From a virus, in the IMG/VR virus record IMGVR_UViG_3300005663_000029, positions 110,886 to 174,885 of that record: 64,000 bases of DNA. One strand, 5' to 3'. Position 1 is the stretch's first letter. Each line of letters starts with the position of its first letter. Of this stretch, positions 4,096-64,000 are shown one piece after another. The translations under genes were made by a program, and so were the position numbers. Under the pieces are notes generated by a model. It was not told the DNA's origin and ran no database searches. It saw only the letters and a program-made list of their open reading frames with translations.

Positions 4096-4110
4096 AAAAA
4101 TTGTTATAAG
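4096..4110 (+). promoter_or_regulatory. Candidate phage promoter element (TATAAG type)
   Basis: The sequence AAAAATTGTTATAAG ends at 4110, 53 bases before the ATG of the plus-strand gene at 4164. The same [C/T]ATAAG core is found upstream of the other three plus-strand transcription units (11414, 15652, 42438). No TTGACA-like -35 box is visible at the usual spacing. It is read as a -10-like element; strand and function are inferred from the repeated position. Confidence 0.4.
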
Positions 4111-4163
4111 AACTATGAAGGCAATTAGCCTGAAACTCTAACACTCTCCTAGGAGGATAGCTC

Positions 4164-4999: not shown

Positions 5000-5001
5000 A
5001 G

Positions 5002-8000
5002 CTAGTACGCCCAAGGTTTATCTTCCGGTGGTTTACCTATCTCAGCTCCGTAAGCTAAAGCCGGTATAGGGTTAGAGCTGTGTACATCAGAAATCCAACC
5101 TTGACCTGCTGCTTCGAGCACAGTCTCTTTTAAACGGTTGAAGTTCATTCTGGCCATCCAGTCTTCACTAACAGCTAACGGGGCCATCTCAACCCCTTTG
5201 AGATTAATTTCAGAAATTATAGGATCTGCAGCTACCTTAACAGTTTGTATACCATGCCTCTTAAGTTTTTGTATGTCGTCTTCATTAAGACGTTTACCTC
5301 TACTCAAACCAGCAACTGGTTCTAGTAAAGTAGAATTGAAAGCATCTACCGGAGCTACAGTTCTAATCCTGCCTGTGCGATTAAAATTCTCTACCAAAGT
5401 CGTCGGTACAATATCTCCGGGAACCACAACCTCATTACCTCCAGGGTCTCTGACCTGAGAGATATTCGTAATACCTCTAGTCATAATCTCGGCATGTCTA
5501 CGATTAATAGGCCCCTCTGTCTTGTAGGAATCGTACAGTGAACCAGCTATATAATTCTGGGTAGCGTCGATACCTTTTAATTCTAACAACTCTCTTGGGT
5601 TTATAACCCCACCACTGATAGGTGACCCTTTTTTAACTGTCTGACCTTTTTTTATTCTCAAACCTCTGTCTTGAGGGATGTAATGAGCTATACCTCCTAA
5701 ACTTACATTCCACCCACCGGCCGGAGCTTTGTTGATACTTTCAATAGATCCGTCAGAACCAGCTAAAGTAGCAGATCCCGGTACTGTTTTTGGTAGGCGT
5801 ACTAATTGAGACACCCGGTCAAAGGTATTTAATACATTACTCTTAGCAGATACAGTACCTCCTGTATGGAAGGCTCTCATTATTAACTGAGTTGATGGTT
5901 CCCCTAAAGATTGTGAAGCTATGGCTCCAACATTAGTGCCTATCTCAGGGAACGCTCCAGTCTCATTTTTTCCATAACATTTTTGGCATACGCCGTTTAT
6001 AGATTCGCAACGCATAGGTGATCGAACAACTATCTTAGGTATTCTATTATTAATCAGACGGGTAATAACTTCTGGAGTTATAACAGTCCCACGCCTGACT
6101 GAGATGGAGCCTACTTTAACTCCATTAGCTAGTACCCGACCTATGATCTCAGGATCTTCGGTCTCTAAAGAAATACCCCTTTTAGTACCACAATCAGCCT
6201 CAGATATTACCATACCTATCGTTGTGTTCATCAACTGTTTTGTTAAATATCCAGGATTACGCACCTCAATAGTTTTCTGTATCATAGTCTTACGTGCAGC
6301 AGACATAGAATTCCAGTAACTACCTAAATCCAGTCCTTCAGAGTAGGATTTTGTTACTGGAACTGGTAGAGGTTTATCATCTGGTCCAGTTACAACACCA
6401 GGAGCACTGATCATAGATCTTACTTGAGCGGGCTTATTTACAGCACCAGATAATAATAAAGCACCTATCCCGGAGTCAGAACTTTTAAAGTGATCGATCA
6501 TCTTTTTGTCTAACGTTTTAACTACCTCCATAAATACAGCAGCCTTCTTTTCATTACGCTCATCTTTAGATAAAGACTTATCTTTGTCGATCTTGGCAGC
6601 TTCTTTCTCAGCAGCTTTAAACAGTCTATCTCTTGTGCTTTTGTTAATAGGTTTAAAATCGGCTAACTTAAATGAGTACCCAGTAGCCTTCTCATTACCT
6701 AGGTTCTTTATCTTATTGACTATTACCCCGAACCTTCCTGGATCTCGTTTTGCAGCTATGTTTAAGAATTCAGTGAGCACGTTCCTATCGAAAGTCTTCT
6801 TCACAACCCTTAACATTTCTTTAGTCTGCATACCTTTAGGTAACATTCCTCTTATTATCTCTTTACCGATAGTTGTCTTTCTACCTTTAAGGGTAACAAC
6901 ATCGTCTATTTTAAGACGGCGTTGTTTAAAGGCTGTCATAATATCTTTTTGGGATGTGAAAGACAGACCTGTCTTCTTACCTTCTTTAGTAAGTAGGAAC
7001 AAACCTAACTGTGCTTCTTGTGTCGGTTTGTACATCAACTTACCGTGAGCTGCAGAAAACAGGTTATTAGAAGGCTTTAATCTATGTGCTTCTGCAACCG
7101 CATCTTTAGAAATAGGTAAGAATATAGGCATTTTATCACCATCGAAGTCAGCGTTATAGCTACTAGTTACAAGAGGGTTAATCTTGATAGCACGGCCAGC
7201 AGTAATGATAGGATCAAACGCTTGTACGTTATATTTGTGTAAAGCAGGATCTCGCTTAGCCAGTACTGGCCTATCTTTCATCACTCTACTTAACGCTGTA
7301 CGTGCCAACTTACTCTTCTTCGAGACTTCCTCTCTAGCTCTAAGAGGGGCCATAAAAAGAGTTTTAGTCAGATCTTTAATGATAAATGGTTTGTATAGTT
7401 CCCAAGCAAGGTTCTCAGGTATACCTATCTCATCTAAACCTAACCTTGGTTCTGGAACAATAGTTGTTCGAGCTGTAAAATCTTGTCGACGCTTCAGTAC
7501 CTTGTTCTGGAAGAAACCTTCTTTAGCAGACACACGTTGTTCTGCACCAGATTTACTGGCACCTAGTATTTCCATGATACCTTTTGGTCTACGACCTTTG
7601 CCACCAATACTTATATGACCTCCTATACCTGTAAATGCTTGTAGAGCATCGTATATTTCAGTACGTAGCTTATTTAAATCCTCATCAGGTAATCCTACCT
7701 TCTTAGCCTCTTTGAATTTGTCAGCCAGTAAAAACACTCCTTTGTAAATACCATTGAGACCTCGATCTCGTATGTTACCTTCTTCAGTAATGGTCAACGG
7801 TCTAAAAGCTGGAGGTAATACAGGTAGAGATTTTTTAACGTAAGCCTCTTCTGGTCTGATACCTAACTCTTTCAAAGACTTCAAGTATCGAATACGACGA
7901 TGAACTTTGGATGTCGTGGCTGCTTTAGACTTTCTAGCTTTCTCTATAGCTTCTTTAAGCTCTTTATCTACATCTACCTTTTTCAGCATATCGTAGAAGA

Positions 8001-11000
8001 GATCTCCTCCAGTTTTGCCTTTAACTACAGTCTTACCATTCTTAATATCCTCGAACTCCTTCTCAGATATATCTAGAATATACTTCAGTGGTTTCTCAAA
8101 TACAGGATTAGCGAACCTCTCTCCGAGATCTATATGAGTCCATTTGGTTCCTTCAAGGCCTCCAGTCAGCTCTTCATCAAACAGGCCATTTCTAATAGGC
8201 TTCAAGCTCTTTCCTTTAACCATTTGTCCGGCGTCTTTGAGTTCACCGCTACTCATATCTAGTATCTGCTTCTCTGTGAAAGGGATTAACTGAAATTTAG
8301 TACCTTTCTTTTCTACATTTACTCCGAGAGCGTTTAGATACCCGGTAAACTTGTCAAACACAAATGCTGGTTTAGTTTTAGGAAGTGGAGCGCCTTCAAC
8401 TAAAGCGTACCAAACATCATCGTTTCGCTCTGTTTTATAGTTATAGGCATCAAACAAGTTAGCTTTAGCTCCATGAGCCAGCATCGCGTAGTTGCCCAGT
8501 TCTCCTAACCTACTAGCACTAGCTTTACCTCCACGAGCTGGTGCTCTTGATGTACTCTCATAAGGGCCTGTAGAGCGAGTAGAAGTACCCTTATCTATCT
8601 GGTGGATAAGCTTAAGCATATACTGCTTACCTACCATTACTTTACCTATTGAACGTCCGGTCTTTGGATCTAAGACGTCTTCAGTGTCAGATAGTTTATG
8701 TTTCTTAAGTTCTTTAATTAAATGGTCAACAGCATTCTTGCCATCAAAGTTAACCATTTTTAGAGGCTTTCCAATCTTATCAGCAATCTTACCTGCCATA
8801 GTCTCTAAGACCTGGCCAGGGTTAATACGTCCAGGTACACCTGTAGGGTTCAATAATACTTCTAAAGGTTTTCCACTCTTAGTTGTAGGCATCTCATTTT
8901 GAGGTACTATCATTGTGACAATACCTTTGTTTCCGTGTCTGCCGATCAGTTTATCTCCTACAATCATAGGCTCTTGTGTTTTTACATAGACAACTACATC
9001 TTTACCAGATACCGATACATCAGTGACAGTTCCCGGAAATCTCTTATCCCACATAATACTCTTACTAGTACTATAAGCAGAAATCAGAGAGCTTTTAAAC
9101 TTACGCATCATTACTTGCTCTTTAGTAAGCTCCACTTTATTGAGGACCGCTACAAGATAATCTTCCTCATAAACAGTCGACCCTTTCTTTACAACACCTC
9201 TAGAGTCTAGTTTCTCTAAGTTTTTTACTGAAAGTATATTAGGACTGTGTGCAGTAAACTTCCTAAGACTTAATTCAGTATTTGGACCCACAGTAACTAA
9301 GAATTTATAAAGGTGCTCAGAGGTCAGCTTCTCAGCAGCTTTTTCCGATATAACTATACCATCTTCATAGTTGTATCCTTTGAACGGCATGTAGCCTACA
9401 TCCAAATTTACTCCTAATGACAACACACCATTTTTAGTAAAGTTAGAGTCAGCCAATAACTGTCCTTTTGTAACCGTGTCCCCAGCCCTTACAACTGGTG
9501 TGGCGTGTAACATCTGTTTACTATTGAGCGGGAAATTATTGTAGTAAGGTACTTTTATACTCTTACCATTGTCCCCTCGAACATAGATGTCTGTTTCAGT
9601 TACCCTTGTTACTTTGCCGTCAATAGGGGATATGTGAGCACTGGTTCGTCCTACAGCTCTTTCAAAAGTATGTTCTGATTTGTCTGACGCTCTTACCTGA
9701 ACTAAAGGTTCTTCTCTGTGTACTAAACTGACAGCTTGCTCTATCTGTTTAGAAGCCATGAAGGCTCTAGCACCTGAGTTGTTACTCAGAAATGGTATCA
9801 TGTTTGTAGTGACATCAAAAAGCACGGACGGGCTTGGTATAACATAATCAACCGTAGTAGCTGGGACTTTTTGTATCTCACCATCTTTAGAGACTACTTT
9901 TACTATTTTTTCTTTAGGAGTATATGTCCCATCAGACTCTTTAATGTATTGATCAGCAAAAGCTACTACGGAATGAATGGACTCCAGAGGGGACACCTTC
10001 ACAAGTTTTTTGCGTTTAATAGAGTAAAAAGTTGTACGTAGCTCATTACCTTTTTTACTAGCACCGATAGGTAGGTTCAATGTTATACCGGTCTTATCTC
10101 CTTCTGGTGTATGGATAGGGTCTAGGAATCCTAAGTGAGAAGGATTAACCTGACGCAGATTCGGTCGTATTTTATTGGGATCAGTAATACCTCCTCCTTC
10201 TCCCATAATGGTGGTTTTTAATTGGCCGCTAATCATCTCAAGAGGGTTAACCTGCTCCGGCTTGTCCGACAACTGTGTACTAGTAAAGAAACTTCTTACA
10301 GGTTCGGTAAAATAGGAAGACGAGACTATATCCCTAATAGCAACTTTGTCATTAAGGTTATTCTTGATCTTGCGATGGATCGTCTTCACCTTTGCCTCGA
10401 TATGTTCCGAGATAAAATCGTCTATGTCAGCAAAGTCTTTGAAGGCCAGTGAATCTGTGTCATCCGGTTTGGCTTCTCCTTTTGACAACTTAATCAGCTT
10501 AGATGAAGTAAGCAGAAGAGCTTCTCCATCTAGCTTAGATACAGCCTTACCGAGAGTTATTTTTGTAGAGTCTTCCCTAAGCTTAGTACCTTTAAATGAG
10601 TCTAATAAAAGACTCTTTACTGCATCTTGGTCAGTAGATTTCTCACCAGTAAGTTTTGCGTATAGCTTGTTTAGATTTCGTTCTTCTTTACCAGAACTAA
10701 AGGTTCGATTAGTTTCTAGTAATTCCTTACCCCAATATCTTTGCATCTGGGCATCACCGATACCCATCATTTTGAGTATAGGGTACAGGAGTATTGAAGT
10801 ACCTGTAGAAGTCTCAGGCAAGAAGTAAAAGATTCCGTTGGCCTGATCTAGTTTTACATGTGAACTTCCTCCCCATCCTTTAAGCCCGATTACCATGTTT
10901 ACCTTAGCTATAACTTCGCCCTTACCACTGATTGTGGAGTACACACCAGACTTAAGCCTGAACTGCCCTTTAGGTTGATACTCTGTTCCTCCAACAATAA

Positions 11001-11307
11001 AAGAGAACCTGCGAGTAACCTTTGGAAGATTCATAATACGGATCTTCGGCCGCTCGTCTATAATTTTTCCGGTCTTCGAATCTTTGAGTACCAGGTGAGC
11101 GTTTACAGGTACAGTCCAGCTACCACCTTTTAGTTTAGCATCTTTCTGTGATCCTAAATCATTGATAGATAGTGAGTCATCAACCCAAATCTTTTTAGCC
11201 TCTAATGTGTGCTTACCACCTGTTATAGGGAACACAGTAGTCTGTAAGGTTTGGACTACCCTTTTTTTAAGAGATTCGAATTGGTCGGCTGGGTTTAGAT
11301 GCGCCAT
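5002..11307 (-). CDS. rpoBC-like: Single-chain DNA-dependent RNA polymerase: fused beta and beta' subunits
   Basis: This 2101-residue protein contains the bacterial RNA polymerase beta subunit (about residues 1-1005) joined directly to beta' (about 1010-2101). Beta motifs: GYNYEDG 644-650, GDK 784-786 and HGNKG 791-795 (active-site lysines K786, K794), NPTGVPGRINPGQ 820-832, GPYESTSR with GGKA 914-929. Beta' motifs: KPIRNGLF 1036-1043, the catalytic NADFDGD 1385-1391 (D1387, D1389, D1391 bind Mg), bridge helix about 1663-1691, second zinc site C1706, C1767, C1774, C1777 with bacterial spacing, trigger loop with Q1807, M1810, R1811, H1814, and the C-terminal PRELLELKG 1904-1912. The N-terminal beta' zinc ribbon is absent and the large lineage-specific insertions are missing, which explains a length well below the E. 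coli sum (about 2750). No alpha or omega gene is visible. Start ATG 11307 has AAGAAGG 8 bases upstream. All catalytic residues are kept, so it should be active. Confidence 0.96.
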   Translation of the reverse strand: MAHLNPADQFESLKKRVVQTLQTTVFPITGGKHTLEAKKIWVDDSLSINDLGSQKDAKLKGGSWTVPVNAHLVLKDSKTGKIIDERPKIRIMNLPKVTRRFSFIVGGTEYQPKGQFRLKSGVYSTISGKGEVIAKVNMVIGLKGWGGSSHVKLDQANGIFYFLPETSTGTSILLYPILKMMGIGDAQMQRYWGKELLETNRTFSSGKEERNLNKLYAKLTGEKSTDQDAVKSLLLDSFKGTKLREDSTKITLGKAVSKLDGEALLLTSSKLIKLSKGEAKPDDTDSLAFKDFADIDDFISEHIEAKVKTIHRKIKNNLNDKVAIRDIVSSSYFTEPVRSFFTSTQLSDKPEQVNPLEMISGQLKTTIMGEGGGITDPNKIRPNLRQVNPSHLGFLDPIHTPEGDKTGITLNLPIGASKKGNELRTTFYSIKRKKLVKVSPLESIHSVVAFADQYIKESDGTYTPKEKIVKVVSKDGEIQKVPATTVDYVIPSPSVLFDVTTNMIPFLSNNSGARAFMASKQIEQAVSLVHREEPLVQVRASDKSEHTFERAVGRTSAHISPIDGKVTRVTETDIYVRGDNGKSIKVPYYNNFPLNSKQMLHATPVVRAGDTVTKGQLLADSNFTKNGVLSLGVNLDVGYMPFKGYNYEDGIVISEKAAEKLTSEHLYKFLVTVGPNTELSLRKFTAHSPNILSVKNLEKLDSRGVVKKGSTVYEEDYLVAVLNKVELTKEQVMMRKFKSSLISAYSTSKSIMWDKRFPGTVTDVSVSGKDVVVYVKTQEPMIVGDKLIGRHGNKGIVTMIVPQNEMPTTKSGKPLEVLLNPTGVPGRINPGQVLETMAGKIADKIGKPLKMVNFDGKNAVDHLIKELKKHKLSDTEDVLDPKTGRSIGKVMVGKQYMLKLIHQIDKGTSTRSTGPYESTSRAPARGGKASASRLGELGNYAMLAHGAKANLFDAYNYKTERNDDVWYALVEGAPLPKTKPAFVFDKFTGYLNALGVNVEKKGTKFQLIPFTEKQILDMSSGELKDAGQMVKGKSLKPIRNGLFDEELTGGLEGTKWTHIDLGERFANPVFEKPLKYILDISEKEFEDIKNGKTVVKGKTGGDLFYDMLKKVDVDKELKEAIEKARKSKAATTSKVHRRIRYLKSLKELGIRPEEAYVKKSLPVLPPAFRPLTITEEGNIRDRGLNGIYKGVFLLADKFKEAKKVGLPDEDLNKLRTEIYDALQAFTGIGGHISIGGKGRRPKGIMEILGASKSGAEQRVSAKEGFFQNKVLKRRQDFTARTTIVPEPRLGLDEIGIPENLAWELYKPFIIKDLTKTLFMAPLRAREEVSKKSKLARTALSRVMKDRPVLAKRDPALHKYNVQAFDPIITAGRAIKINPLVTSSYNADFDGDKMPIFLPISKDAVAEAHRLKPSNNLFSAAHGKLMYKPTQEAQLGLFLLTKEGKKTGLSFTSQKDIMTAFKQRRLKIDDVVTLKGRKTTIGKEIIRGMLPKGMQTKEMLRVVKKTFDRNVLTEFLNIAAKRDPGRFGVIVNKIKNLGNEKATGYSFKLADFKPINKSTRDRLFKAAEKEAAKIDKDKSLSKDERNEKKAAVFMEVVKTLDKKMIDHFKSSDSGIGALLLSGAVNKPAQVRSMISAPGVVTGPDDKPLPVPVTKSYSEGLDLGSYWNSMSAARKTMIQKTIEVRNPGYLTKQLMNTTIGMVISEADCGTKRGISLETEDPEIIGRVLANGVKVGSISVRRGTVITPEVITRLINNRIPKIVVRSPMRCESINGVCQKCYGKNETGAFPEIGTNVGAIASQSLGEPSTQLIMRAFHTGGTVSAKSNVLNTFDRVSQLVRLPKTVPGSATLAGSDGSIESINKAPAGGWNVSLGGIAHYIPQDRGLRIKKGQTVKKGSPISGGVINPRELLELKGIDATQNYIAGSLYDSYKTEGPINRRHAEIMTRGITNISQVRDPGGNEVVVPGDIVPTTLVENFNRTGRIRTVAPVDAFNSTLLEPVAGLSRGKRLNEDDIQKLKRHGIQTVKVAADPIISEINLKGVEMAPLAVSEDWMARMNFNRLKETVLEAAGQGWISDVHSSNPIPALAYGAEIGKPPEDKPWAY

Positions 11308-11537: not shown

Positions 11538-11698
11538 CCCTAGATAGGACTACAATTATCCTAATCTCTACAGGTTTATTATCTGGATTATTTATGGCAC
11601 TGGCAGAAGCGTTAATAGAGTGGAGCGACATCGTAAAATTTTTTAACAGTCCACACTCTATCAATGACTATGTAGAATTTAGAAGCAGGTTTAGCTAG
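11534..11698 (+). CDS. Small membrane-type protein (54 aa)
   Basis: GTG at 11534 overlaps the stop of the 25-residue gene by four bases (GTGA). The 54-residue product has one likely transmembrane helix near the N-terminus (TTIILISTGLLSGLFMALA) and a polar C-terminus. Its stop overlaps the end of the convergent portal gene by eight bases. It could be a small inner-membrane phage protein; no family is recognised. The alternative is that only the first micro-gene is real. Confidence 0.5.
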   Translation: MTLDRTTIILISTGLLSGLFMALAEALIEWSDIVKFFNSPHSINDYVEFRSRFS

Positions 11699-13574
11699 TA
11701 GAACCAGCTACCTGACCTCCTACTTTTCTACGTGGCGGCTTGATTTCTGGTAGTGGTTTGTTTTCTGACTTGGAAGGATCTCCTCCAGTGAGCATCTGTA
11801 TAAGCTTACCGTGAAGTTCAGGCATCTCACCCTTCATTTTGTCTAGAACAGCCTGTTTCTGAGCCTCATTCATTTCAGACATCTCTTTAGCGTAGTAGTT
11901 AAGAAGATTGCGGGCATCTATATTCACAGCACCATCTTCGGCTTCTTGACCTCTGTCTAATACTTGTTGGGCTTCTTGGGCTTGATTTTGTACCCCTTCT
12001 GGCACAGTTGCTCCAGCCTCTCCGATACTTCCTATAAGCTCTTGTAGCTTTTGTTGGTAACGTTGTTGTATCAACATAGACTGCCCTTGCAGCATCGCGT
12101 TGATGTCGTTCTCTACCTTCCTGAAATGAAGTTTCTTTTTTAGCTCGTCCTCAAGCATGGCAGATTGTTCATCATAGTCGAAACCGAATTCGTCCAACAA
12201 AGCGTGATCTGATATCTTCTGCGATGCATTAAGTGTAATGAGAATCTGCTTCTTCTGCAGATCATCAGCCATTTTGAAGTCAGTCATTCTAGTAGATACA
12301 GAAGGCCATCCTAGGTACACATGGACACGTTCTAATACCCATTTGAGGAAACCATTTTGAGAGGTACGATACCGTATAAATAAGTTCTCCAACATTCTAA
12401 TACTCATACTAGAACCAGAGTATGTCAGGCCACCAAATACAAATTCTCGTGGTACACCCATACCGGCGATAGTTTCTTCCATCCTCATACGTATTTCTTG
12501 TGTAAGCATCATGGCCTTACCCTGGCCACCAAAAGATTGCAGTCCTATAGGTAATGGGAAGATAGGGATATGATTGGGGTCCAATCTCCAACGTTTAATC
12601 TCAGTCTCTACGTTAGTCTTCCAAGTACTTAAGCTTAACGATGAATAGGCTGTACCGTGCTCAGTTTGGCCGGATGGGTAAATAACACGTAGAGGAACAA
12701 TGTGCTCCATAGCAATGGCTTCATTAGCCTTACGTAATACCTTTAAATAGAACAGGTCTTGTAAAACAGGCATAGGTAATGGAGTTCCCCATCCATTGAA
12801 TTTACCTGAGATACTAGGTCGCTTGAAATGATAGATTGATCCAGGATTAAAAATAATCGGTTTATTCTTAATAGCAGCCTCAATAAAAATGTTAGGTAGA
12901 TCTTTTATAGTATTACGATCACCTTTTTTTATTAGCTTTCGGGTAGCTGCCGGTATAGTGTATGTGTACACATTTTTATGTGTAAGAGGGTTGTATATAA
13001 TACCTATATCATGCGGGTTCCAACGTATCAGATTCAGTTCCTTCTCTGATTTACGGTAAACATCTTCTGGATCCATCAAAGATATTTCTTTGCAGTTTGG
13101 ACAAGCGCCTTTAAATTGAAACTTACCTTCAACCAACTTAAAGTTCACTTCTTCGATATTGCTGTACTTCTTACAGTTACGGCACTTGAGCCTCTTCTGT
13201 AGCGGGTAATTAATAGAGGCAAAGGCATTACCATAATTGAAGTAATCCATACCTATCTCTATTTGGAAGTCATAGATCTTTAAGTTTTCTTCAAACAACA
13301 ATTCGTATCTAGAAATAATGTCTTCATTATCGTGCTCGAAAGACAGATCAGTTATAGGGTAAGCGGCCATATTCATTATAGCCGCGTTTAAAAATCCTGT
13401 AGAGCTAAAGTAATACTCTAAAAGATCAAACAACTCTTTTATCGAACTAGGAAGATATGTCTGAGCTACATTAAAAAATGGGTGAGGGTAACGAATGATC
13501 CCTCGACTAGCTAAGTCGGACCGGGTTCGTCTATTAAACCTAGAAGTACTACCTACAGTTACCAAAGAAGACAT
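11691..13574 (-). CDS. Portal protein
   Basis: A 627-residue protein with the layout of phage portal proteins: N-terminal region, a long alpha/beta core with the stretch MGVPREFVFGG followed by YSGSSMSIRMLENLFIRYR typical of the portal stem/crown in large phages, and a Gln/Glu-rich helical C-terminal region (about 480-600) as in many portals. Portals form the dodecameric ring at the capsid vertex through which DNA is packaged and ejected. It carries an unusual inserted zinc ribbon, two CxxC knuckles (CRNCKK and CPNCKE, roughly residues 130-165). The gene lies directly downstream of two unknown genes on the same strand. Confidence is based on overall pattern, not alignment. Confidence 0.72.
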   Translation of the reverse strand: MSSLVTVGSTSRFNRRTRSDLASRGIIRYPHPFFNVAQTYLPSSIKELFDLLEYYFSSTGFLNAAIMNMAAYPITDLSFEHDNEDIISRYELLFEENLKIYDFQIEIGMDYFNYGNAFASINYPLQKRLKCRNCKKYSNIEEVNFKLVEGKFQFKGACPNCKEISLMDPEDVYRKSEKELNLIRWNPHDIGIIYNPLTHKNVYTYTIPAATRKLIKKGDRNTIKDLPNIFIEAAIKNKPIIFNPGSIYHFKRPSISGKFNGWGTPLPMPVLQDLFYLKVLRKANEAIAMEHIVPLRVIYPSGQTEHGTAYSSLSLSTWKTNVETEIKRWRLDPNHIPIFPLPIGLQSFGGQGKAMMLTQEIRMRMEETIAGMGVPREFVFGGLTYSGSSMSIRMLENLFIRYRTSQNGFLKWVLERVHVYLGWPSVSTRMTDFKMADDLQKKQILITLNASQKISDHALLDEFGFDYDEQSAMLEDELKKKLHFRKVENDINAMLQGQSMLIQQRYQQKLQELIGSIGEAGATVPEGVQNQAQEAQQVLDRGQEAEDGAVNIDARNLLNYYAKEMSEMNEAQKQAVLDKMKGEMPELHGKLIQMLTGGDPSKSENKPLPEIKPPRRKVGGQVAGSTS

Positions 13575-23652: not shown

Positions 23653-23653
23653 T

Positions 23654-43059: not shown

Positions 43060-43315
43060 CAAACAACCGAACCCGCCCGAATCTGTGATGGACACTGATC
43101 TGACCTACAAGTTACTCAAAGGGTTTCATTCTGATAACAAAAAATCCTCTTTACAACGAATAGCTGATAAACAAAAGACTCCTCAGCACAAAGTACCTTT
43201 ATGTCCTAAGTGTGGTAGTGAGAAAATTCTAAAGGTAGCCTTCGAACCTAAAAGGTTTTTACCTATACCTGGTACAAAAGGAAGTCGAGTTCTTTGTTTT
43301 GAATGTTTAACTTAA
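43052..43315 (+). CDS. Small zinc-ribbon protein (87 aa)
   Basis: The likely start is ATG 43052, overlapping the RNase HII stop (ATGTCTGA); an in-frame ATG at 43037 is possible. The C-terminal half has CPKCGS and CFEC knuckles about 28 residues apart, a zinc ribbon. The N-terminal half is polar and probably disordered. Coupled to RNase HII, so a nucleic-acid role is likely. The stop overlaps the end of the convergent baseplate gene by four bases. Confidence 0.6.
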   Translation: MSDKQPNPPESVMDTDLTYKLLKGFHSDNKKSSLQRIADKQKTPQHKVPLCPKCGSEKILKVAFEPKRFLPIPGTKGSRVLCFECLT

Positions 43316-46152
43316 GAAATATCAGTTAACTCTACCTGATCTGTGTCTAATAAAAATCTCTTAGTTCTAGAACTCAATATAATTTGTGATATAGAACGTA
43401 TAGTCTTGTAACTACGCTGTTCGTCAATCTCTATCACTACTAATTCGAACGGAAGTTCTACAAAACTAGCCCCATTACCTTGTAAAACTTTTTGTACTTC
43501 AAAAGCTTCTAAAGGATCTAACGATCCGACCCCTTCTATATACTCCTCCATACCATTTACCACAGCTAGCTCGTCAACTATAGTCTCAGTCTTGTAGTTA
43601 ATTTTTAGCCTCACGAACGCAGGTAGGAAGTGACGTATCATTACATCTTCTACAACGACTCGGTTAATATCTGAAGTCACGAAATCTTGGATTTCGTTTA
43701 AACCACTACCATACTCATAGTTCAGTCGCACACTGTTGTTTGAAATAAACAACGTGTAATCATCAAACGTCGATGTGAAACCTATAGTTAGTTCTTCGTA
43801 AACAGAAAAGGAGAATTTATCATTGGCCGTTTCTAAGTACCAACCTTCACTGAAGTAATTACCGTCTACAACCACTAACTCAGTGTCTTCTGAAAAATTA
43901 CCTGTGTTGTCGATAGGGTCTGCATAGCAAAGCATGTCGAAGTAATAAAGTCCGTTATCTTTACCTCTGGCTTCCATAAATGCTTTACTGGTTCCTGGGC
44001 TTATAACCCAGTCAATGATTGTGTCGGTAACAGGAGCAGCAGTAGGTCTGTATCCATAGTCAGTAGCTACAATCGGAGTGAGGTCTTGTCGTACGATAGT
44101 AATCTTCGCAATACCGGATATGTCTGTGCTAGGTACGATATCGGTAATAATATATTGAGGTGATTGAGGAACACCGGCTATTACATCTGTTAAAATACTT
44201 CCTACTTCTACATTATCCCACGATGTATTGCCGGAAGGAAGCTCAAATATAGTAGCATTCCCTGAAGGGTCTACTGTACCTTCTGCAGTTGCTTGAGCAT
44301 AACCCGAAGTAGGGTTACCAAAATCGGCATCAACACCAATACGTATAGGGAACACCTTGATACCATCGTCAGTTTCAAATTCAGTTCCTCCATCTAAGTC
44401 TAAATTTGTCGAAAACGATGTCGGATCTAAAAAGTAAAACCTAACAGTTCCTGTAGCGTGATCAGTGCCTGGGCCAATACCATTTGGACCTCCACCGCCT
44501 ACGAAAGTGGCAGTACGTATATCAACAGGATCCTTTTTAGGTATGATCTCTCCAGTAGGTTGGAGACTTAACTGATCTATACGTTCGACAGAAACCATTC
44601 TTACTAAGGGTTTACTGACCAAATTCAAAAGTGACTCTGGGTCTTGAACAGCTATCACCTGTACAGGGTTTGTAGGGCTGATTGTCACAAGGTCATAAGA
44701 TCCAACAGAAAGGTCGGTCTCTTTGATGTAGATATCGGTCTTACCGCCAACAGCGACCTCATTAGGATCTGTCAGCAATGGTGCTGGTCCTAAAAAACCT
44801 CCAGGGATATCTGAGATAGATAACTGTTCTAAATCAGTAGAGAAATTATACCGGTATGTCGCTTTGATAACGTCCGACACAATTGGTGCTGAAACATTTT
44901 CGATAAAGTTATAGTCAGGTCCTGTACCGAAAGTCCAAGTAGGGTCTATAACATCGTTAATATATACGTCTAACGGTAAACTTGGATCAGCAGGACCTAT
45001 AGGTAACCTAAATTTCTTTAATGGCTCTCTAGTCCAACTTCCTGTTTCGTCAGCTACAAAACTTATAGGGATGTCATACGTATGTGGAGTCACGTTTGAT
45101 AGAACACTAACTCCGTTATAGCTGGTTGTTAATGTGATATTAACTTCGTTTTCATTCTCTAATCCATGATCGGGCGAAATTACGGTAGTAGTTAATCCTC
45201 CTCCAGAGGAGATAGTTCCTGTAATAGACCCCGCTGGGTCAGCTGTAACAATAGTTACCGCTATACGTTCTAGTATCACAAAGTCTTCAAGAACCCCCGT
45301 TATACGGTCTCTTCGCATTTCAGAGTTGCCGTAAGCTACTACCTCAATATCGTTAACAGCAAGAAAGTTGTCAGGTAGAACAAAGTTGATTCCTTTGAGC
45401 GTATTGATATCCCGAACAGTCAAACTGTTAGCAGCTACTGCTGCCAGATCCTCGTTAGTCTGGGGAGTTCTTCCGTCTTTAAACTGTTCTCTGTTAGTGA
45501 CCTTTATAGGGCCAGGTAAAAGTCCTTCGATAGTAGTTACTTGATTTATATCTATGTTGTACTCATCACCCTCGTTCTCAGCAATTACAGCTACATCTAC
45601 GTAGAACCTTGAACCGTCTACATTAAAAGACATATCTTCTGCCGAAATATTGGTAGTAGTAGATGGGAAGAAGGCTAAGTCATTTATAGCTAGAACTCTG
45701 TTCAATGGAGACACGGATAGAGCGACCGGATTTATATAATAGATTCTGATATTCCCAGTAGATTTGTCTCCCGAAATTCTTTCGATGAAAAAATTGGCTA
45801 CTAATGCGTCCATCTCATCTTCAGACATGATATCAGCATTTCGTAAAGACATACTTTTACGTAGAGCAACCAACTCATTCCTCAGAGGAGCAAAAATATG
45901 TGTAGCTATATTTACAGAAGTAGCGCCTAAAGCGGACCCTCCATCTGTAGATAATTGAGGGTCTATAGTTTTTATACGATCCTTAATGAGTTGCTCGACA
46001 CTGACTTCTACAGGGTTACTACCAACACGATCCAACATAGGCTGAATCACGTTAATGTCCCATTGAGATCCTACAGAGGTATCTACCGTGCTATCCATAG
46101 TAAGAATTAAGTCTTCTATAAATGACCGTAGTTGCGTATTAACTGCTGGCAT
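43312..46152 (-). CDS. Baseplate J / gp6-like wedge protein (946 aa)
   Basis: A long protein with the core of the baseplate J family (P2 gpJ, T4 gp6): an N-terminal helical part, then beta domain with G-D-E-Y-N-I-D-I-N-Q-V, then V-T-N-R-E-Q-F-K-D-G-R-T-P-Q-T-N-E-D and L-T-V-R-D-I-N-T-L-K-G, the typical order of J proteins (strand, G-x-N, N, D/G-x-E/D). At 946 residues it is two to three times gpJ length, with large inserted beta domains in the C-terminal half, closer to T4 gp6 and jumbo-phage homologues. It forms the wedge ring that changes shape before sheath contraction. The gp25-like gene lies just upstream. Confidence 0.8.
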   Translation of the reverse strand: MPAVNTQLRSFIEDLILTMDSTVDTSVGSQWDINVIQPMLDRVGSNPVEVSVEQLIKDRIKTIDPQLSTDGGSALGATSVNIATHIFAPLRNELVALRKSMSLRNADIMSEDEMDALVANFFIERISGDKSTGNIRIYYINPVALSVSPLNRVLAINDLAFFPSTTTNISAEDMSFNVDGSRFYVDVAVIAENEGDEYNIDINQVTTIEGLLPGPIKVTNREQFKDGRTPQTNEDLAAVAANSLTVRDINTLKGINFVLPDNFLAVNDIEVVAYGNSEMRRDRITGVLEDFVILERIAVTIVTADPAGSITGTISSGGGLTTTVISPDHGLENENEVNITLTTSYNGVSVLSNVTPHTYDIPISFVADETGSWTREPLKKFRLPIGPADPSLPLDVYINDVIDPTWTFGTGPDYNFIENVSAPIVSDVIKATYRYNFSTDLEQLSISDIPGGFLGPAPLLTDPNEVAVGGKTDIYIKETDLSVGSYDLVTISPTNPVQVIAVQDPESLLNLVSKPLVRMVSVERIDQLSLQPTGEIIPKKDPVDIRTATFVGGGGPNGIGPGTDHATGTVRFYFLDPTSFSTNLDLDGGTEFETDDGIKVFPIRIGVDADFGNPTSGYAQATAEGTVDPSGNATIFELPSGNTSWDNVEVGSILTDVIAGVPQSPQYIITDIVPSTDISGIAKITIVRQDLTPIVATDYGYRPTAAPVTDTIIDWVISPGTSKAFMEARGKDNGLYYFDMLCYADPIDNTGNFSEDTELVVVDGNYFSEGWYLETANDKFSFSVYEELTIGFTSTFDDYTLFISNNSVRLNYEYGSGLNEIQDFVTSDINRVVVEDVMIRHFLPAFVRLKINYKTETIVDELAVVNGMEEYIEGVGSLDPLEAFEVQKVLQGNGASFVELPFELVVIEIDEQRSYKTIRSISQIILSSRTKRFLLDTDQVELTDIS

Positions 46153-46161: not shown

Positions 46162-46602
46162 CTATACTAATATACCGACTAGGCTGAACACGCCTTCTGC
46201 GTTAACCAGCCTAACCTCTATAAATATCGTTGTTAAAGCTTTCACATACGAAGCCTGTATTAGCGTTAAACTAAGTAATGTTTCACTAAGCGATACAGGC
46301 TCTCCAGCTTGTAAATTAAAAATCTGACGTTCTACCGTAGTTACGGAGTTACCTATAGCGGTCATCATACCAGCTATGTGAGGCTTGTCCATCGTCTTAC
46401 CTATAAGAGACTTCAACCCTCCTCCTAAACCAGGATTAAGAATATCAGTTCCTTGATCAGATAAAAGCAGCATCACTACCTTCTGAGTTAATTTGTCAAT
46501 CCCAGATAACACACCTGGATCTGCACCAAATCCCCAGAGAGCAGTTCTCTGGTAATCTCCGGGTCCTGGTATGAATGTAATTAAACCTAAATCTAAACTC
46601 AT
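46162..46602 (-). CDS. gp25-like baseplate wedge protein
   Basis: A 146-residue protein immediately upstream of the J-like gene, as in most contractile-tail phages (gpW/gp25 next to gpJ/gp6). It has the family core I-x-x-L-L-L-S-x-Q-G-T-D-I-L-N-P-x-L-G-G-G-L (about 44-66) instead of the classic I-L-T-x-x-G-E-R-x-x-x-P-x-F-G; the E-P-x motif of gp25 appears as GEPVSL (about 100). It links the inner baseplate to the sheath. Overlaps upstream gene by four bases. Confidence 0.7.
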   Translation of the reverse strand: MSLDLGLITFIPGPGDYQRTALWGFGADPGVLSGIDKLTQKVVMLLLSDQGTDILNPGLGGGLKSLIGKTMDKPHIAGMMTAIGNSVTTVERQIFNLQAGEPVSLSETLLSLTLIQASYVKALTTIFIEVRLVNAEGVFSLVGILV

Positions 46603-51310: not shown

Positions 51311-51514
51311 TTAAAGCTCCAGTAATTTGTTAATGTCTGTAGTTACTACAGCTGAAGTAGACGCTGTGGTCTCATCGATTAAGCTGCTAGGTGAGGTTTC
51401 AATAGTGCTGAGGAACACGACTTCCTCATTTAACCTAAGTTGTTCCTTCAATTTCCATTCTGAGAATGATACTTTTAAGATGTTCAGTTGTAAAATAGCT
51501 GTTTCGATACTCAT
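51311..51514 (-). CDS. Hypothetical small protein (67 aa)
   Basis: A 67-residue helical protein with a Ser/Thr-rich second half (TSPSSLIDETTASTSAVVTTD). ATG 51514 overlaps the stop of the sigma-like gene by four bases (ATGA). The coupling to the sigma gene is notable: a small partner such as an anti-sigma would be encoded here, but the sequence shows no such family. Otherwise an ordinary small tail protein. Confidence 0.55.
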   Translation of the reverse strand: MSIETAILQLNILKVSFSEWKLKEQLRLNEEVVFLSTIETSPSSLIDETTASTSAVVTTDINKLLEL

Positions 51515-52329
51515 GTGTATACCTGCATCTTGTTAGCAATCTTCTTCTTTATTCTAGACACCTTCGCTGCGGCCATATTTAACTGTTTAGCTATCGCAGT
51601 AGTACCAAGCTCTTGTTTACCGTGAGCGCCTAGAGTGTATTCGTACACCAGTTTTTCCTCTGGGGTCAGTTCATAATAAATAAGTTTTAAAATATCAGAA
51701 TCCTTACTTCGTTCGAACGTAGTAACAGCCCCTGTTTCTTCTCCTCCAGTAATGTCGGCTCGTATCTCTATTTCTAGCAAAGCTACTTCAGACATCGGCC
51801 AACTCATAAATTCAGACATCTCTTGAGTAGTAGGTTCTCTGCCGTGCATATCATGTAACTCAGTCTTTGCACGTTTAAACTCACCAATCCTACGTTGTCT
51901 TTGTTCAGGTATCTTACCGAAGTTATTATATTTTTTGATGAATCTCCCTACAGATTTTAATTGATGTTGGAGATGTGTACTTAACTTAACCCCATAGGAA
52001 GGGTCGAAGGTGTTTAAGGCTTGGAGAGTCTTTATCTTAACTTCAGCTTCCACTGCGCTTCTTGGTATAGCCCAACTGGTAGCATGTCTTTGGGTATACA
52101 TATTCGTGATGTTAGACAAAGACTTCATCAACGGAGTTAAGTTCTGCTTAGTCGGAGCCTGTTTCCATGTATCGTAAAGTTGAACTTCTTTCTTCTGGCG
52201 ACTTCTTAGTTGAGTAGTAGTTAGAGGGGCAATAGGAGTCATCTTCTTAGCGAAAGACTCTTTCTCTAATACCTCTTCCTCACCATCAAAAAGAAGGTGA
52301 GCAAATTCATCTAATGCTAGATCATTCAT
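51511..52329 (-). CDS. Sigma-70-family RNA polymerase sigma factor
   Basis: A 272-residue protein with the order of sigma-70 regions: region 2 (about 60-136) with L-Q-A-L-N-T-F-D-P-S-Y-G-V-K-L-S-T-H (compare L..A...FDP.RG.KFSTYA in sigma factors) followed by a basic helix like 2.4; region 3 (about 140-190) with GREPTTQEMSEFM; region 4 (about 217-268) with LTPEEKLVYEY and the helix-turn-helix GTTAIAKQLNMAAAKVSRIKKKI. It should direct a core RNA polymerase to promoters. It may serve the phage's own beta-beta' polymerase, the host's, or both. Its location inside a baseplate gene cluster fits late expression or packaging. Residues 1-55 are an extra N-terminal part. Confidence 0.85.
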   Translation of the reverse strand: MNDLALDEFAHLLFDGEEEVLEKESFAKKMTPIAPLTTTQLRSRQKKEVQLYDTWKQAPTKQNLTPLMKSLSNITNMYTQRHATSWAIPRSAVEAEVKIKTLQALNTFDPSYGVKLSTHLQHQLKSVGRFIKKYNNFGKIPEQRQRRIGEFKRAKTELHDMHGREPTTQEMSEFMSWPMSEVALLEIEIRADITGGEETGAVTTFERSKDSDILKLIYYELTPEEKLVYEYTLGAHGKQELGTTAIAKQLNMAAAKVSRIKKKIANKMQVYT

Positions 52330-53703: not shown

Positions 53704-56445
53704 TTATCCTACAAAACCTCTAGACCGTATAAGCTGTCGCCTATATTTTAATATTATAGTCTGGCGGGCTTTTAGTACAGGGTCTTTTACAACTTGGACG
53801 CCCTCAACTTCAACAGCTCCAGTTGAGGCAGTAACTGGGGTACCAGATACTGGATCCCCTTCCGTTTGTGCTCTAGCAAATGGCCTACCTACATATAAGA
53901 CATTGAACTTAGGAGTTAGCTTGTCTGACTCAAATTGAATAGTCGGACCTGAAACAAATTTTGGATCTCTGTCATCATACCTAATCTCATTAGCTAACTG
54001 AGCCATAGTAGCTGCATCAGCATCCCTAGGATTTACTTCACCAGCTGTGGTTAGTGCTATGTCTTCGAGTATACTAGTTGCTTCTTCTATAGGATCTGAG
54101 AGAACACCTATCTGAATTAGAGAAGCAGTAATTGCTTCAGGATCTATAATATCTAACAATTTCGCAATTGGTCTGAAAGTAATTGTGTTTATAAAATTTT
54201 GTATGTCTGCTATTTTTCCTCTAGACAGACGACTGTATGCATCTGCCAATACTTCTATAGACTTGTTAATACTCACAGGAGTGTTAGACAATTCTGCTGT
54301 AAGTGCGTCTCTAAACTCACCTACAGTAGTAGCAGTATTTAAAGGAGAATCCGCGTCGTGGATACTGGCAGAAGCTCGTTGAGTAGCATTAGTACGAAAT
54401 AATATATCTGAATCCTCTGTTTCACCTGGAGTAAACTCTATACCAAATAAACCGGAGTTGCTGGTAATTATTCCTCTAACTACTGTCTCGGCCACTTCTC
54501 TAGCTTTGTCAGCTTCCTCCTCCTCATCCAAGTAACCTACTTTTACAGAATCAATCATACTACCACACCCTAATAATGGTGCATAAAACTTAGGGCCTAT
54601 ATTTTCATTCCCATACACATCCTTATCTAACCACTTTGGGGCAATAATTTTTTCAATCGGTATAACAGTAGGAGCTGCGGTACCTAAACGAGCATTTGTA
54701 ACCGTTAGGAACTTATATATCTGGCCCTCAGTTCCGACAGCGTACCCACTCAAAGACTCATCCCACATTCGTACCTTTTCTAAAGTAAACGAAGTGGTAC
54801 CACCACTAACAGCATCTACACTGTGAGTAAGAGTAATGATACTACCAAGTAAGTGAGACGGATGAGATTCATCTAATTCACTTTGTAAGACAGGTTTATC
54901 TATTACAGCGGCAGGCAACCCACATACTAACCTCGGTAAGAACTTGGCAGTAACATTTGCCATTCTAGTTCCGAATCTCATTTTATAGAATTCATAGTTG
55001 GCTGTATCTGTTATGTGGGGAGTTGGTTGCCCTGCTGCAGCTTTAGTAGCTGTATAGCTAGGGTACTGACTTATAGATTGCCAGACCGGGATTGGGCCTG
55101 TGAACTGTTCGTGTGGGTGTTTTAAAGACAGAAATTTACTGAAAGCTCCACTACCAGGTACAACCCCAGGTATATTCTGCCCAGCCTCTATCTTCTTGAC
55201 TGATTCTATTACAGCAGTTGTAGCTGGTGCGAAATGCATAGGTTGCATATCTTGTGCGCCTGCTCCACCAGTAGCTACAGTAGCACGCTCCTGAACCAAT
55301 AACCTTGTAGGTTCAGCTAAGTAATTACGTGCGTAAGATACAGATGTGTACTCATCTGGAAATATTAAGTTACACGATGGAGGGGGAGCAAAAAACAATT
55401 CCGGTTTCATCATCAATGTATAAAGAGAGTCTTTGTCTGGATTATAATACGGAGTAGTTATAGGAGCGTGCGTGTAATATATAGGAGTCAGCGACAGCTT
55501 TAACATATCTCTCAATGTGGCTTGGTTAGCTCCGAGTTCTGAAATAGTGTTTTGTATAGATTGAAAAAAAACAGTAGTTTCCATAAGTTTGATGGCTGTA
55601 TCGTCATTTTCAGCTGCGTAAACTTGATCTAGTATTCTATTTCTAAGAAGAGCTTCTCTGAAAAAGATATTAAGTATTCTACCCCCGGCAGGTCCTGGAT
55701 CTACACCAGATACTGCTGCTATAATCCTGACAAACCCGGCTAATAAGCCATTAATTCCTTGAAACTTCACTTTGTATCTGTCGAGTAGAAAAGGACTACC
55801 GCCAGGGCTGAACAATCGTGTGATCCAGTTTGTTGCTTCAAAGAATTGCGCCGCCAAAAATGTATAATTATGATCCTGACCTTGTAGAAACATAGTCATT
55901 TGGGACTGGGCAATAGAACCCACATTTAAGTACGTCTGGTAAATGAAATCGAAATAGTTGGTATCGTCTAAACACTCTAAAGATATAACCCTATTTCCTT
56001 GAGCTGACTTAGACCACTGCCACCCAGACACTTCACCTTTAAACAATACCCTATACTTGTTTAAAACATCTCCAGAATACATATTGCCAATATCTTTACC
56101 TTCGCCTAATAACGCCTTAGTATCGGCAGTTAACTTTGACTTAGTTAAAGGCGCATCATTAGGAGGGTCTGTAGAGGTTATATCTAATAGATCAGCTTCA
56201 ATAACACCGGATGAGGCACGTTCTGCTGAATCTTCAGTCTTTATTTCAATACCAGTATAGTCATAGTAAAAAAGCTGTACAGTAGTTCTAGGCTGAATGT
56301 ATTTAGCCAAATCTGTAGGGATGATTCTAATCTGCGCTCTAGCAGGCGCGTTGATTGTAGTAGTGACATTAGCCCCGACTACAGGAATCTCAATACCATC
56401 AAGGAACAATCGTAGATGAAGTCTACCTCCGGCACCGCCACCCAT
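53704..56445 (-). CDS. Putative baseplate hub / tail protein (913 aa)
   Basis: The first 130 residues resemble the N-terminus of phage hub proteins (gpD/gp27/gp44-like): LRLFLDGIEIP, then A-R-A-Q-I-R-I-I-P-T-D, then I-Q-P-R-T-T-V-Q-L-F-Y-Y-D, and W-Q-W-S-K-S-A-Q-G-N-R-V-I-S-L-E-C. This is the usual beta-barrel beginning of hub proteins. The remainder (over 700 residues) is long for this family and includes helical parts (about 640-800). It would form the centre of the baseplate to which the spike binds. The start overlaps the upstream stop by one base. Confidence 0.55.
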   Translation of the reverse strand: MGGGAGGRLHLRLFLDGIEIPVVGANVTTTINAPARAQIRIIPTDLAKYIQPRTTVQLFYYDYTGIEIKTEDSAERASSGVIEADLLDITSTDPPNDAPLTKSKLTADTKALLGEGKDIGNMYSGDVLNKYRVLFKGEVSGWQWSKSAQGNRVISLECLDDTNYFDFIYQTYLNVGSIAQSQMTMFLQGQDHNYTFLAAQFFEATNWITRLFSPGGSPFLLDRYKVKFQGINGLLAGFVRIIAAVSGVDPGPAGGRILNIFFREALLRNRILDQVYAAENDDTAIKLMETTVFFQSIQNTISELGANQATLRDMLKLSLTPIYYTHAPITTPYYNPDKDSLYTLMMKPELFFAPPPSCNLIFPDEYTSVSYARNYLAEPTRLLVQERATVATGGAGAQDMQPMHFAPATTAVIESVKKIEAGQNIPGVVPGSGAFSKFLSLKHPHEQFTGPIPVWQSISQYPSYTATKAAAGQPTPHITDTANYEFYKMRFGTRMANVTAKFLPRLVCGLPAAVIDKPVLQSELDESHPSHLLGSIITLTHSVDAVSGGTTSFTLEKVRMWDESLSGYAVGTEGQIYKFLTVTNARLGTAAPTVIPIEKIIAPKWLDKDVYGNENIGPKFYAPLLGCGSMIDSVKVGYLDEEEEADKAREVAETVVRGIITSNSGLFGIEFTPGETEDSDILFRTNATQRASASIHDADSPLNTATTVGEFRDALTAELSNTPVSINKSIEVLADAYSRLSRGKIADIQNFINTITFRPIAKLLDIIDPEAITASLIQIGVLSDPIEEATSILEDIALTTAGEVNPRDADAATMAQLANEIRYDDRDPKFVSGPTIQFESDKLTPKFNVLYVGRPFARAQTEGDPVSGTPVTASTGAVEVEGVQVVKDPVLKARQTIILKYRRQLIRSRGFVG

Positions 56446-62333: not shown

Positions 62334-64000
62334 AGGAACAAAAGATCAGTCACAGAATCTATAAACCACTTATACCCAAGAGGATCTCCTCCACCCACAA
62401 ATTGATCTATACCATTTGCATCCTTACTCAACCTTCCATCGAGTTCTAATGTAGACCCTACAAGGATGGCTCCTATTGTTGCTGGATCGATAAGAGCTTC
62501 TGGAACACCACCAGCGAACACAGTAATTATATTTTCACTCCAACCATTGAATTCATCTTCTACACGCAACCTGATTGTATAATTTCCTGAAACATCTGCA
62601 TCAAATGAAACATCTTCCCCATAAGTACCTGATGGTGTAAGTGCCCCACTAAACCCTGTTGGAAAGGAATCAAATGTCCAAATAATATTGGTAAAGGAAG
62701 CTATGTCGTCATTCTCTTCATCAGTGCTATTAACGCCGGTAAAAAGGAATGTACCTCCGACAGGAAGTACGTTTGCCGTAACTAGTAGACCAGACACAGG
62801 GTCAACAACTGTAGTTAAATTTTCTAAAACAGCTACTGGAGGAGTGTTAAGAGCTTCTATAGTGACAAACGCCTCTTCACTATCTTCAGCGTCAGACACT
62901 CTCGTAACTACAAGTCTTACAATATAAGTTCCAGGCTCTAACAAATCTAAAACAGCTACCGAGACAGTACCATTCAATAGAGTAGCTTCTACACCAGAAG
63001 TAAAATTAACAGGAGTCCATTGGTACGTTAATTCCTGTTCTTCGATCCCTGTAGACTCAAACTGTTGTGTAGCCTCGTTAAATACCAGAGAGATACCGTC
63101 TAGACTATCTAGTCCGTTCAATACCACAGATTGTCCATATGAAGCAGCAACTGCAGGCCCAGGATTAGCGATAGGCTTAATATCTGGGAATGGGGCTACC
63201 GTTATAGTTTTAGTAGTCGTACTTTCTACAAGAAGGGGGCCATTAAAATTAAACGCTCTGAGTAGAACCACATAATCACCTGGGAGTGCTAGTCTCCCTA
63301 AAGTAGTATTAGGCCCTTCACTACTACCAAATAAAGTCACACTAGTATCTGGCCCTGACAATATAGACCATTCATAATTTATCAAGTCACCGTCCGGATC
63401 TGTTACGTCAGATAAAAGACTAAGAGAAGAGCCAGGGTAAATAGTCGGAGGTTCGTTCTGTATAGTTATAGGAGTACCTCCAAAAAGAGGGCCTTGATTA
63501 TCTGTATCAATAACATTGAATTGAAAGTAAATAGGCTCTCCTATTTTTACTACTGACCCTATACCCTCTACTTCCACTACCTTACTAGGGACAGCGGATA
63601 AATGATAAACTCCTTGTTGTAGGTTAGTTATACCTATTTTAAAAACCCCAGATCCATCAATTCCTCCAGCCGTTCCTATTGTCACTAGCCCTTCATTAGG
63701 ATTTATAAAGGCCTTTCCATCTCCAGCTAACGGAGGACCATAGTCCTTATTAAAAGATACAGACACAGGTCCTTCAGGATCATTACTGGTTGCGAATACA
63801 TCAGCGAAGATTCCCGCTCCTAGAACATCTTCTCCTATAGGTAAGTCCATATCGACGACGACTCGGTTACCTACAGTCTCTGCATTAACTATGATTCCGC
63901 TAAACGAGGGTGTAAATTCGTATGATAACGTTGGAGGCTGAAGTAAATCAACTGGGCGTCTTCCTTCCTCCTCTAAACCGTATCTAGGCTGAGGAGCTTC
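62330..64000 (-). CDS. PKD-repeat tail protein, 5' part cut by window edge
   Basis: The frame stays open from the stop at 62330 to the right edge at 64000, so the ATG at 63850 is most likely an internal Met: the upstream 50 codons (…IVNAETVGNRVVVDM) continue the same beta-rich sequence without a stop or ribosome site. At least three PKD-like domains are visible, each with the G-(D/N/T)-Y-x-(V/I)-x-L-x-(V/A) end strand (GDYVVLLRA, GTYIVRLVV, GNYTIRLRV) and Y-x-W/W-T strand in the middle. PKD domains act as rigid spacers or binding modules in surface proteins. Its stop overlaps the next start by four bases. Confidence 0.65.
   Translation of the reverse strand, partial: EAPQPRYGLEEEGRRPVDLLQPPTLSYEFTPSFSGIIVNAETVGNRVVVDMDLPIGEDVLGAGIFADVFATSNDPEGPVSVSFNKDYGPPLAGDGKAFINPNEGLVTIGTAGGIDGSGVFKIGITNLQQGVYHLSAVPSKVVEVEGIGSVVKIGEPIYFQFNVIDTDNQGPLFGGTPITIQNEPPTIYPGSSLSLLSDVTDPDGDLINYEWSILSGPDTSVTLFGSSEGPNTTLGRLALPGDYVVLLRAFNFNGPLLVESTTTKTITVAPFPDIKPIANPGPAVAASYGQSVVLNGLDSLDGISLVFNEATQQFESTGIEEQELTYQWTPVNFTSGVEATLLNGTVSVAVLDLLEPGTYIVRLVVTRVSDAEDSEEAFVTIEALNTPPVAVLENLTTVVDPVSGLLVTANVLPVGGTFLFTGVNSTDEENDDIASFTNIIWTFDSFPTGFSGALTPSGTYGEDVSFDADVSGNYTIRLRVEDEFNGWSENIITVFAGGVPEALIDPATIGAILVGSTLELDGRLSKDANGIDQFVGGGDPLGYKWFIDSVTDLLFL
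63057..63088. repeat. Dispersed 32-base repeat, copy 2
   Basis: Second copy of the repeat at 61327-61358 (TCAAACTGTTGTGT ... CCTCGTTAAATAC), differing at about four positions, inside the PKD protein gene. Confidence 0.5.

Follow-up and report, generated by a model that had tools for sequence, protein, structure and literature searches.

The final 64 kb of a 174,885-base IMG/VR virus record, hereafter the window, encode a fused beta-beta′ RNA polymerase and a sigma-70-family factor (Table 1). The reading judged likely here is that this sigma factor is dedicated to the phage's own fused core, is packaged together with it, and initiates transcription after injection at a promoter-like sequence referred to as motif A (TG[G/T]TATAAG-N5-TG). 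This reading draws on the domain architecture of the two proteins, their joint occurrence across a phage lineage, the published virion proteome of the cultured Salmonella phage Arash (OQ632216), and the distribution of motif A and of a second motif among related genomes.

Table 1. Positions in the 64-kb window of the genes, protein regions and promoter-like site discussed in the text.
Feature	Position	Strand	Evidence
Motif A site TGTTATAAGAACTATGAAG, 17.4 bits, upstream of plus-strand ORF 4164-4943	4102..4120	+	matrix from other phages
Fused beta-beta′ RNA polymerase, P0004, 2101 aa, presumed core partner	5002..11307	-	profile searches
Catalytic NADFDGD motif, P0004 1385-1391	7135..7155	-	alignment
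Beta′ clamp helices, P0004 1184-1226	7630..7758	-	alignments; two-helix hairpin in model
Flap-tip helix of beta part, P0004 729-737	9097..9123	-	alignment; helix in model
Portal protein homolog, adjoining the polymerase gene as in Arash and D69	11691..13574	-	homology
Arash gp13 / D69_14 homolog, baseplate block, detected in Arash virions	43312..46152	-	homology, proteome
gp25-like baseplate wedge protein, homolog of Arash gp12 / D69_13	46162..46602	-	homology
Sigma-70-family factor, P0001, 272 aa, Arash gp10 ortholog	51511..52329	-	profiles, tblastn, alignments
Sigma region 4 / helix-turn-helix, residues 211-271	51517..51699	-	profiles, alignment, model
Region 3.2-like linker (inferred), residues 186-210, low-confidence loop in model	51700..51774	-	alignment, model
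Sigma region 3, residues 142-185	51775..51906	-	Pfam Sigma70_r3 1.1e-6
Sigma region 2, divergent, residues 47-134	51928..52191	-	alignments
Arash gp8 homolog (virion cell-wall hydrolase), upstream in sigma gene block	53704..56445	-	homology

A divergent sigma factor in the baseplate gene block

The sigma gene opens with ATG. Its product exceeds the cut-off of the Pfam region 3 model and matches PHROG 351 'RNA polymerase sigma factor' (2.4e-12, residues 102-268) as well as a number of NCBIfam sigma models (best 1.2e-9, residues 102-269), a series that covers approximately residues 43-271. A search against the sequences of solved structures returned a Bacillus-type sigma factor (1l0o, 2.9e-5) as the top match, followed by RpoD and RpoS chains. 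Regions 2 and 3, the linker and region 4 succeed one another along the protein; regions 2.3 to 4 are covered by the NCBIfam and PHROG models, and region 2 is seen by alignment only, with regions 2.2-2.4 at residues 90-134. The Pfam region 2 model PF04542 gave zero matches across the 174.9-kb record, and a region 2 of this type is barely detectable in the Arash ortholog. An AlphaFold model computed with 11 sequences is all-helical with a mean pLDDT of 72. Compared by fold with the PDB, it is matched best by sigma factors from initiation complexes (E values down to 1e-7), although the uncertain arrangement of the domains keeps whole-chain TM-scores low.

Alignment with E. coli sigma70 revealed substitution of D403 by A92, Q406 by A95, Y430 by H119, W433 by H122 and W434 by Q123. 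Tyrosine 430 and the two tryptophans are the aromatics that open the -10 element, a feature of primary sigma factors and not of the whole family, and alternative sigma factors likewise vary at these positions. None of the canonical aromatics is present in the window protein, and the position of Y430 is a histidine in 12 of 13 family members; their absence is read as pointing to a diverged promoter specificity. Judged by its sequence, the ORF is a genuine but divergent sigma-70-family protein, with clear regions 3 and 4 and an alteration in the -10-recognising part of region 2. The first-pass annotation had described such a factor with regions 2, 3 and 4 in order and had proposed a profile comparison as the check; the Pfam, PHROG, NCBIfam and solved-structure matches bear this description out, region 3 by its Pfam score and region 2 through alignment.

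The placement of the gene within a baseplate cluster, claimed by the same annotation, also holds. It is flanked by the gp8-like tail hydrolase and gp25-like wedge genes, and both Arash gp10 and the sigma gene of Vibrio phage D69 are found after the terminase and tail genes, behind the tail hydrolase and before gp25-like and gp13-like genes, so that the cluster assignment is correct and the arrangement old. By tblastn, the sigma factor is 30% identical to its counterpart in Arash and 25% identical to those in Vibrio phages D69, D181 and D148. A plain IMG/VR search for close relatives of the sigma factor found none, and a profile search of IMG/VR with a three-sequence sigma alignment yielded 15 more loci. 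Applied to bacterial genomes, the sigma profile picked up ordinary cellular sigma factors, offering no clue to the phage host.

A position inside this block, the occurrence of the ortholog in Arash particles (see below) and the loss of the standard -10 aromatics would also suit a sigma-derived structural (baseplate) protein devoid of any role in transcription. Such a protein is scarcely credible given that regions 3 and 4 show the conservation seen in functional sigma factors, that region 2 keeps the residues invariant across the family (D109 P110, G113, K115 and T118), and that a polymerase gene co-occurs.

Two further features of the record were noted. A PKD-domain protein is encoded at 62330-63850 of the window, at the record end and within the strand block that contains the tail genes. 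Twenty tRNA genes lie at positions 26741-78166 of the full record (G000), one of them with a CUA anticodon; TAG recoding, considered on account of this tRNA, was rejected, as stop use looks normal and TAG is an ordinary stop.

The fused polymerase and its docking elements

P0004 is the sole polymerase gene of its kind in the record; its product reaches 1e-178 with a fused bacterial beta/beta′ model and 1.7e-152 with a bacterial beta′ model. When aligned with RpoB/RpoC of Salmonella and Acinetobacter, it proved to have retained the features by which a bacterial-type beta/beta′ core is recognised, namely the NADFDGD motif, the bridge region, the trigger loop, the clamp helices and the flap, tip helix included, together with the second zinc-binding cluster; it lacks the first zinc finger and the large lineage-specific insertions. 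In bacteria, sigma region 4 docks on the flap-tip helix and region 2 on the beta′ clamp helices. In a structural model of residues 600-1480 (mean pLDDT 67), the clamp helices form a two-helix hairpin (pLDDT about 81-85), and the tip of the flap carries a helix.

The alpha subunit domains PF01193 and PF01000 were not found in the 174,885-base record, and PF01193 gave no match above cut-off in ten relatives. Core and sigma factor would constitute a transcription system of two polypeptides, the alternative being that alpha is supplied by the host or by an unrecognised phage subunit.

A single fused chain is common among the IMG/VR relatives. The polymerase of Arash and D69 is encoded by two genes, for approximately 1525 and 606 residues, which are split at the same place in beta′, near residue 1480 of the fused chain, with other, small genes between the halves. 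An annotated homing endonuclease occupies the split region in D181 and D148, and the split may derive from the insertion of a mobile element. The fused polymerase of one relative (L029 9986-18472) is 2829 residues long and contains intein-like insertions carrying LAGLIDADG endonuclease domains, which apparently account for its extra length. Several 'phage' records that matched the polymerase resembled bacterial chromosomes, with complete rpoB/rpoC and ribosomal protein genes, and were therefore excluded from the phage count; two of them were reused as reference sequences.

Co-occurrence and co-divergence of sigma factor and polymerase

Both genes are present in every related record of 170 kb or longer, 12 of 12 in total (the window's own record, 8 sigma-selected IMG/VR records, G029, and phages Arash and D69), a count that, like those that follow, depends on shared ancestry and does not represent independent events. 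G029 (211 kb) had been found independently via its portal protein and carries both. Starting from the polymerase instead, six fragments of 60 kb or more were obtained, some of them near-identical, and the sigma gene was detected in five; the polymerase-positive record G016, which is 94 kb long and incomplete, gave no sigma match. No sigma factor of the window type was found in the other polymerase phages YerA41, GN1, Carin-5, RHph_TM30 and Va2. In Cobetia phage Carin-5, an adjacent gene annotated 'RNA pol sigma factor' was examined as another possible case of the combination; neither the sigma profile nor the Pfam region 2 model detected it, and it was therefore left out of the count.

Changes are seen on both sides of the presumed interface. 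Beta′ residues R275 and E295, which we take to face sigma D403 and Q406, are kept in the bacterial references and replaced in the window phage, Arash and D69 (by L, V and L, and by L, L and A, respectively). In the sigma family, D403 is replaced by A in 13 of 13 members and Q406 by A, G or S in 11 of 13. This pattern, expected of a private pair, is suggestive only; together with the features described above, it leads us to infer a physical interaction of the sigma factor with the phage polymerase.

Sigma factor and polymerase in virions

Mass spectrometry of Arash particles identified the gp206 polymerase chain as the most detected protein with 3516 spectra, as well as gp216 with 1210 spectra and the sigma factor gp10 with 467 spectra, 24 unique peptides and 100% coverage, while the second Arash sigma factor, gp196, is not listed in the virion table (PMC10585845). 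Calculated from the published table, spectra per residue amount to 2.00 for gp10, 2.00 for gp216, 2.31 for gp206, 1.51 for the portal and 4.34 for the major capsid protein, which, as a crude measure, is compatible with near-equal amounts of sigma factor and polymerase in the virions. Among 114 tallied Arash proteins, none exceeds gp10 in unique peptides per 100 residues. The particles had been prepared on a single sucrose gradient and the 116 listed proteins include metabolic enzymes, so carry-over is possible, as stated by the Arash authors (PMC10585845).

The first-pass annotation had regarded the sigma factor as probably partnering the fused polymerase, and a virion-borne holoenzyme as conceivable. 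The former proposal gains from co-occurrence in every long related genome found and from the conservation of both docking elements, the latter from the abundance of both orthologs in the published Arash virion proteome. By analogy with Arash, the sigma factor and polymerase of the window phage would be packaged too, and the phage is likely to inject a transcription apparatus that is already assembled and employs a true sigma factor.

Reprogramming of the host core, in the manner of SPO1 gp28 or T4 gp55 and with no use of the factor by the phage polymerase, is the presumed role of most phage-encoded sigma factors (PMC7598289, PMC7824862), and, should alpha be required, the phage would still have to obtain it from a host. 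For the present protein this role is quite improbable: it sits poorly with the strict co-occurrence of sigma gene and polymerase gene, with the loss of the region 2.2 residues that contact the host core, paired with changes in the phage clamp helices, and with the approximately equal representation of both proteins in Arash virions.

Promoter-like motifs and a second sigma factor

Motif A occurs on the non-structural strand in five genomes, that of the window included. Its core, GGTATAAG, was observed 11 times upstream of Arash genes against 0.6 expected and 17 times against 0.8 in the relative G011, and it extends to TG[G/T]TATAAGTAA..TG. The TG located about 5-6 bases downstream of TATAAG is conserved; no conserved -35 partner was found. 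Intergenic sites lie opposite the structural-gene strand almost throughout (22 of 23 in Arash, 28 of 29 in G011, 18 of 18 in D69 and 8 of 8 in G008).

The motif was recognised from Arash and its relatives and then tested in the window's genome with a matrix from other genomes; a de novo search in the window's genome alone performed no better than the reversed-sequence control. Trained on four other phages, the matrix detected seven intergenic sites of at least 10 bits in the window's genome, all on the non-structural strand, and none of 400 column-shuffled matrices reached this number (mean 1.2, maximum 5 sites). The site listed in Table 1 is additional to these seven, its ORF having been dropped by crude gene calling. 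That plus-strand ORF starts with ATG and overlaps an opposite, minus-strand ORF at 4094-5014 with a TTG start; the motif A site and the composition of the product suggest that the plus-strand frame is the real gene. The GC-rich relatives G012 and G022 gave few motif A hits and the signal is weak in G005, all three having the sigma factor.

Being one base from the extended -10 consensus (TGnTATAAg against TGnTATAAT), motif A might be read by host sigma70. In a second reading of the system, the sigma factor still partners the phage core, the host sigma70 polymerase serves motif A early, the phage holoenzyme transcribes other, probably later genes, and packaging is incidental or belongs to another step. 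Late promoters of the window phage were looked for and none was identified, which counts for this reading, since the late genes need a reader. Host transcription also appears to be manipulated, as suggested by an annotated Srd-type anti-sigma factor in D69 (23371-23910), a phage with its own polymerase and sigma factor, and by a protein encoded outside the window at 74989-75675 of its record (L008 14989-15675), in which an N-terminal XRE-type helix-turn-helix is joined to a C-terminal Sigma70_r4 domain (2.2e-11), possibly a decoy or adaptor on a polymerase flap. Use of motif A by sigma70 nevertheless seems unlikely. The strong preference for G over T at the T-7 position is unfavourable for sigma70, and TGnTATAAT is nearly absent upstream of genes (one occurrence in Arash and none in G011 or the window's genome); the missing -35 element and the additional conserved downstream TG argue in the same direction, and the virion abundance of the sigma factor would be left needing another reason.

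A second motif, TAAAATA (motif B), was observed 8 times against 0.3 expected upstream of Arash genes, where it precedes late-type genes (portal, gp185, gp188, gp218 and endolysin). It leans to the structural strand in four relatives (7/11, 10/13, 15/19 and 12/17 sites) and is enriched in the four relatives that also carry a second, canonical sigma factor of the gp196 type. Arash gp196 (OQ632216 120656-121693; L074 20656-21693) has an intact region 2 and an intact tryptophan pair. Homologous matches to it were obtained in G004, G006, G007, G008, G009, G011 and D69, and a sigma factor of this type is present in all analysed genomes with motif B, Arash and D69 included. TAAAATA is not enriched in the window's genome, and the Pfam region 2 model found no gp196-type second sigma factor in its record. 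On the basis of this co-distribution in a few genomes, the simplest assignment would link the virion sigma factor to motif A and the second sigma factor to motif B.

Proposed mechanism

In the favoured reading, that of a packaged sigma factor dedicated to the phage core, a single beta-beta′ polypeptide without recognisable alpha would serve as core and the 272-residue protein as its initiation factor. As in bacteria, the beta′ clamp helices would receive region 2 and the flap-tip helix region 4. The two proteins would be packaged as a holoenzyme, enter the cell with the DNA and initiate at motif A on the non-structural-gene strand before any phage protein is made, so that transcription from this motif would be early. 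It is proposed that, because both the contact surface and the -10 pocket are altered, the holoenzyme and its promoter would be private to the phage. Newly made polymerase and sigma factor would carry on transcription as the same enzyme, and in Arash-like relatives the second sigma factor may redirect the polymerase to late genes. The wider proposition, in which the virion holds a two-polypeptide sigma-dependent holoenzyme lacking alpha and omega and serving its own early promoters, with the second, non-virion sigma factor and second promoter class of the relatives forming an early-late switch on the phage core, is given an even chance.

Comparison with known systems

Arash resembles the window phage in having an orthologous sigma factor in the same block and a polymerase beside the portal gene, with both proteins in its virions; it differs in its split polymerase and its canonical second sigma factor, since in the window phage the polymerase is a single chain and only one sigma factor is recognisable. 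Vibrio phages D69, D181 and D148 likewise encode the same sigma factor and polymerase in the same contexts, but with a split polymerase, 'hypothetical protein' annotation and, in D69, a second sigma factor. The Arash paper lists the sigma and polymerase proteins without analysing the system or its promoters (PMC10585845), and the bare fact that both are found in particles is therefore not new.

Phages of the phiKZ/AR9 type (Chimalliviridae and relatives) also possess multisubunit polymerases without alpha or omega, one version of which is found in the virion. However, they encode two polymerases of 4-5 polypeptides each and, according to reviews, no sigma homolog, AR9 using gp226, which lacks sequence similarity to sigma factors; the window record has one polymerase gene, encoding one chain, with a sigma factor. 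The mReC phages (Weinheimer and Aylward 2020), partly mined from IMG/VR, share beta and beta′ recognisable by cellular COG models, but separate COG0085 and COG0086 matches were required, and the words 'sigma' and 'virion' are absent from that paper. Polymerases of the crAss-like/YonO type similarly hold both barrels in one polypeptide; they are too divergent for cellular models, in contrast to the strong beta′ match of the window polymerase, and are not known to use a sigma factor. SPO1 gp28/gp34 and T4 gp55 are phage-encoded sigma factors that redirect transcription, as proposed here, whereas SPO1 and T4 have no polymerase of their own and make their sigma factors during infection.

In reviews up to 2026, jumbo phages that encode a polymerase are said to have no alpha, sigma or omega, and those that encode a sigma factor to have no polymerase, their sigma factors using the host core (PMC7598289, PMC7824862, PMC13282480). 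Against these accounts, the lineage of the window phage is an unusual variant, and the combined system, comprising a fused core, a diverged sigma factor and two promoter classes that track two sigma factors, and shared by a whole phage lineage, is not described in the literature searched.

Significance

Taken together, this phage lineage has both a polymerase and a sigma factor, and the particle of a cultured relative holds both in similar amounts per residue. If the proposed reading is true, this would be the smallest sigma-dependent bacterial-type holoenzyme known to us. It would make it possible to test directly whether assembly can do without alpha once beta and beta′ are joined in one chain, and how core and sigma factor of a phage co-evolve away from their host counterparts, with the Salmonella phage Arash as a laboratory system for the holoenzyme question.
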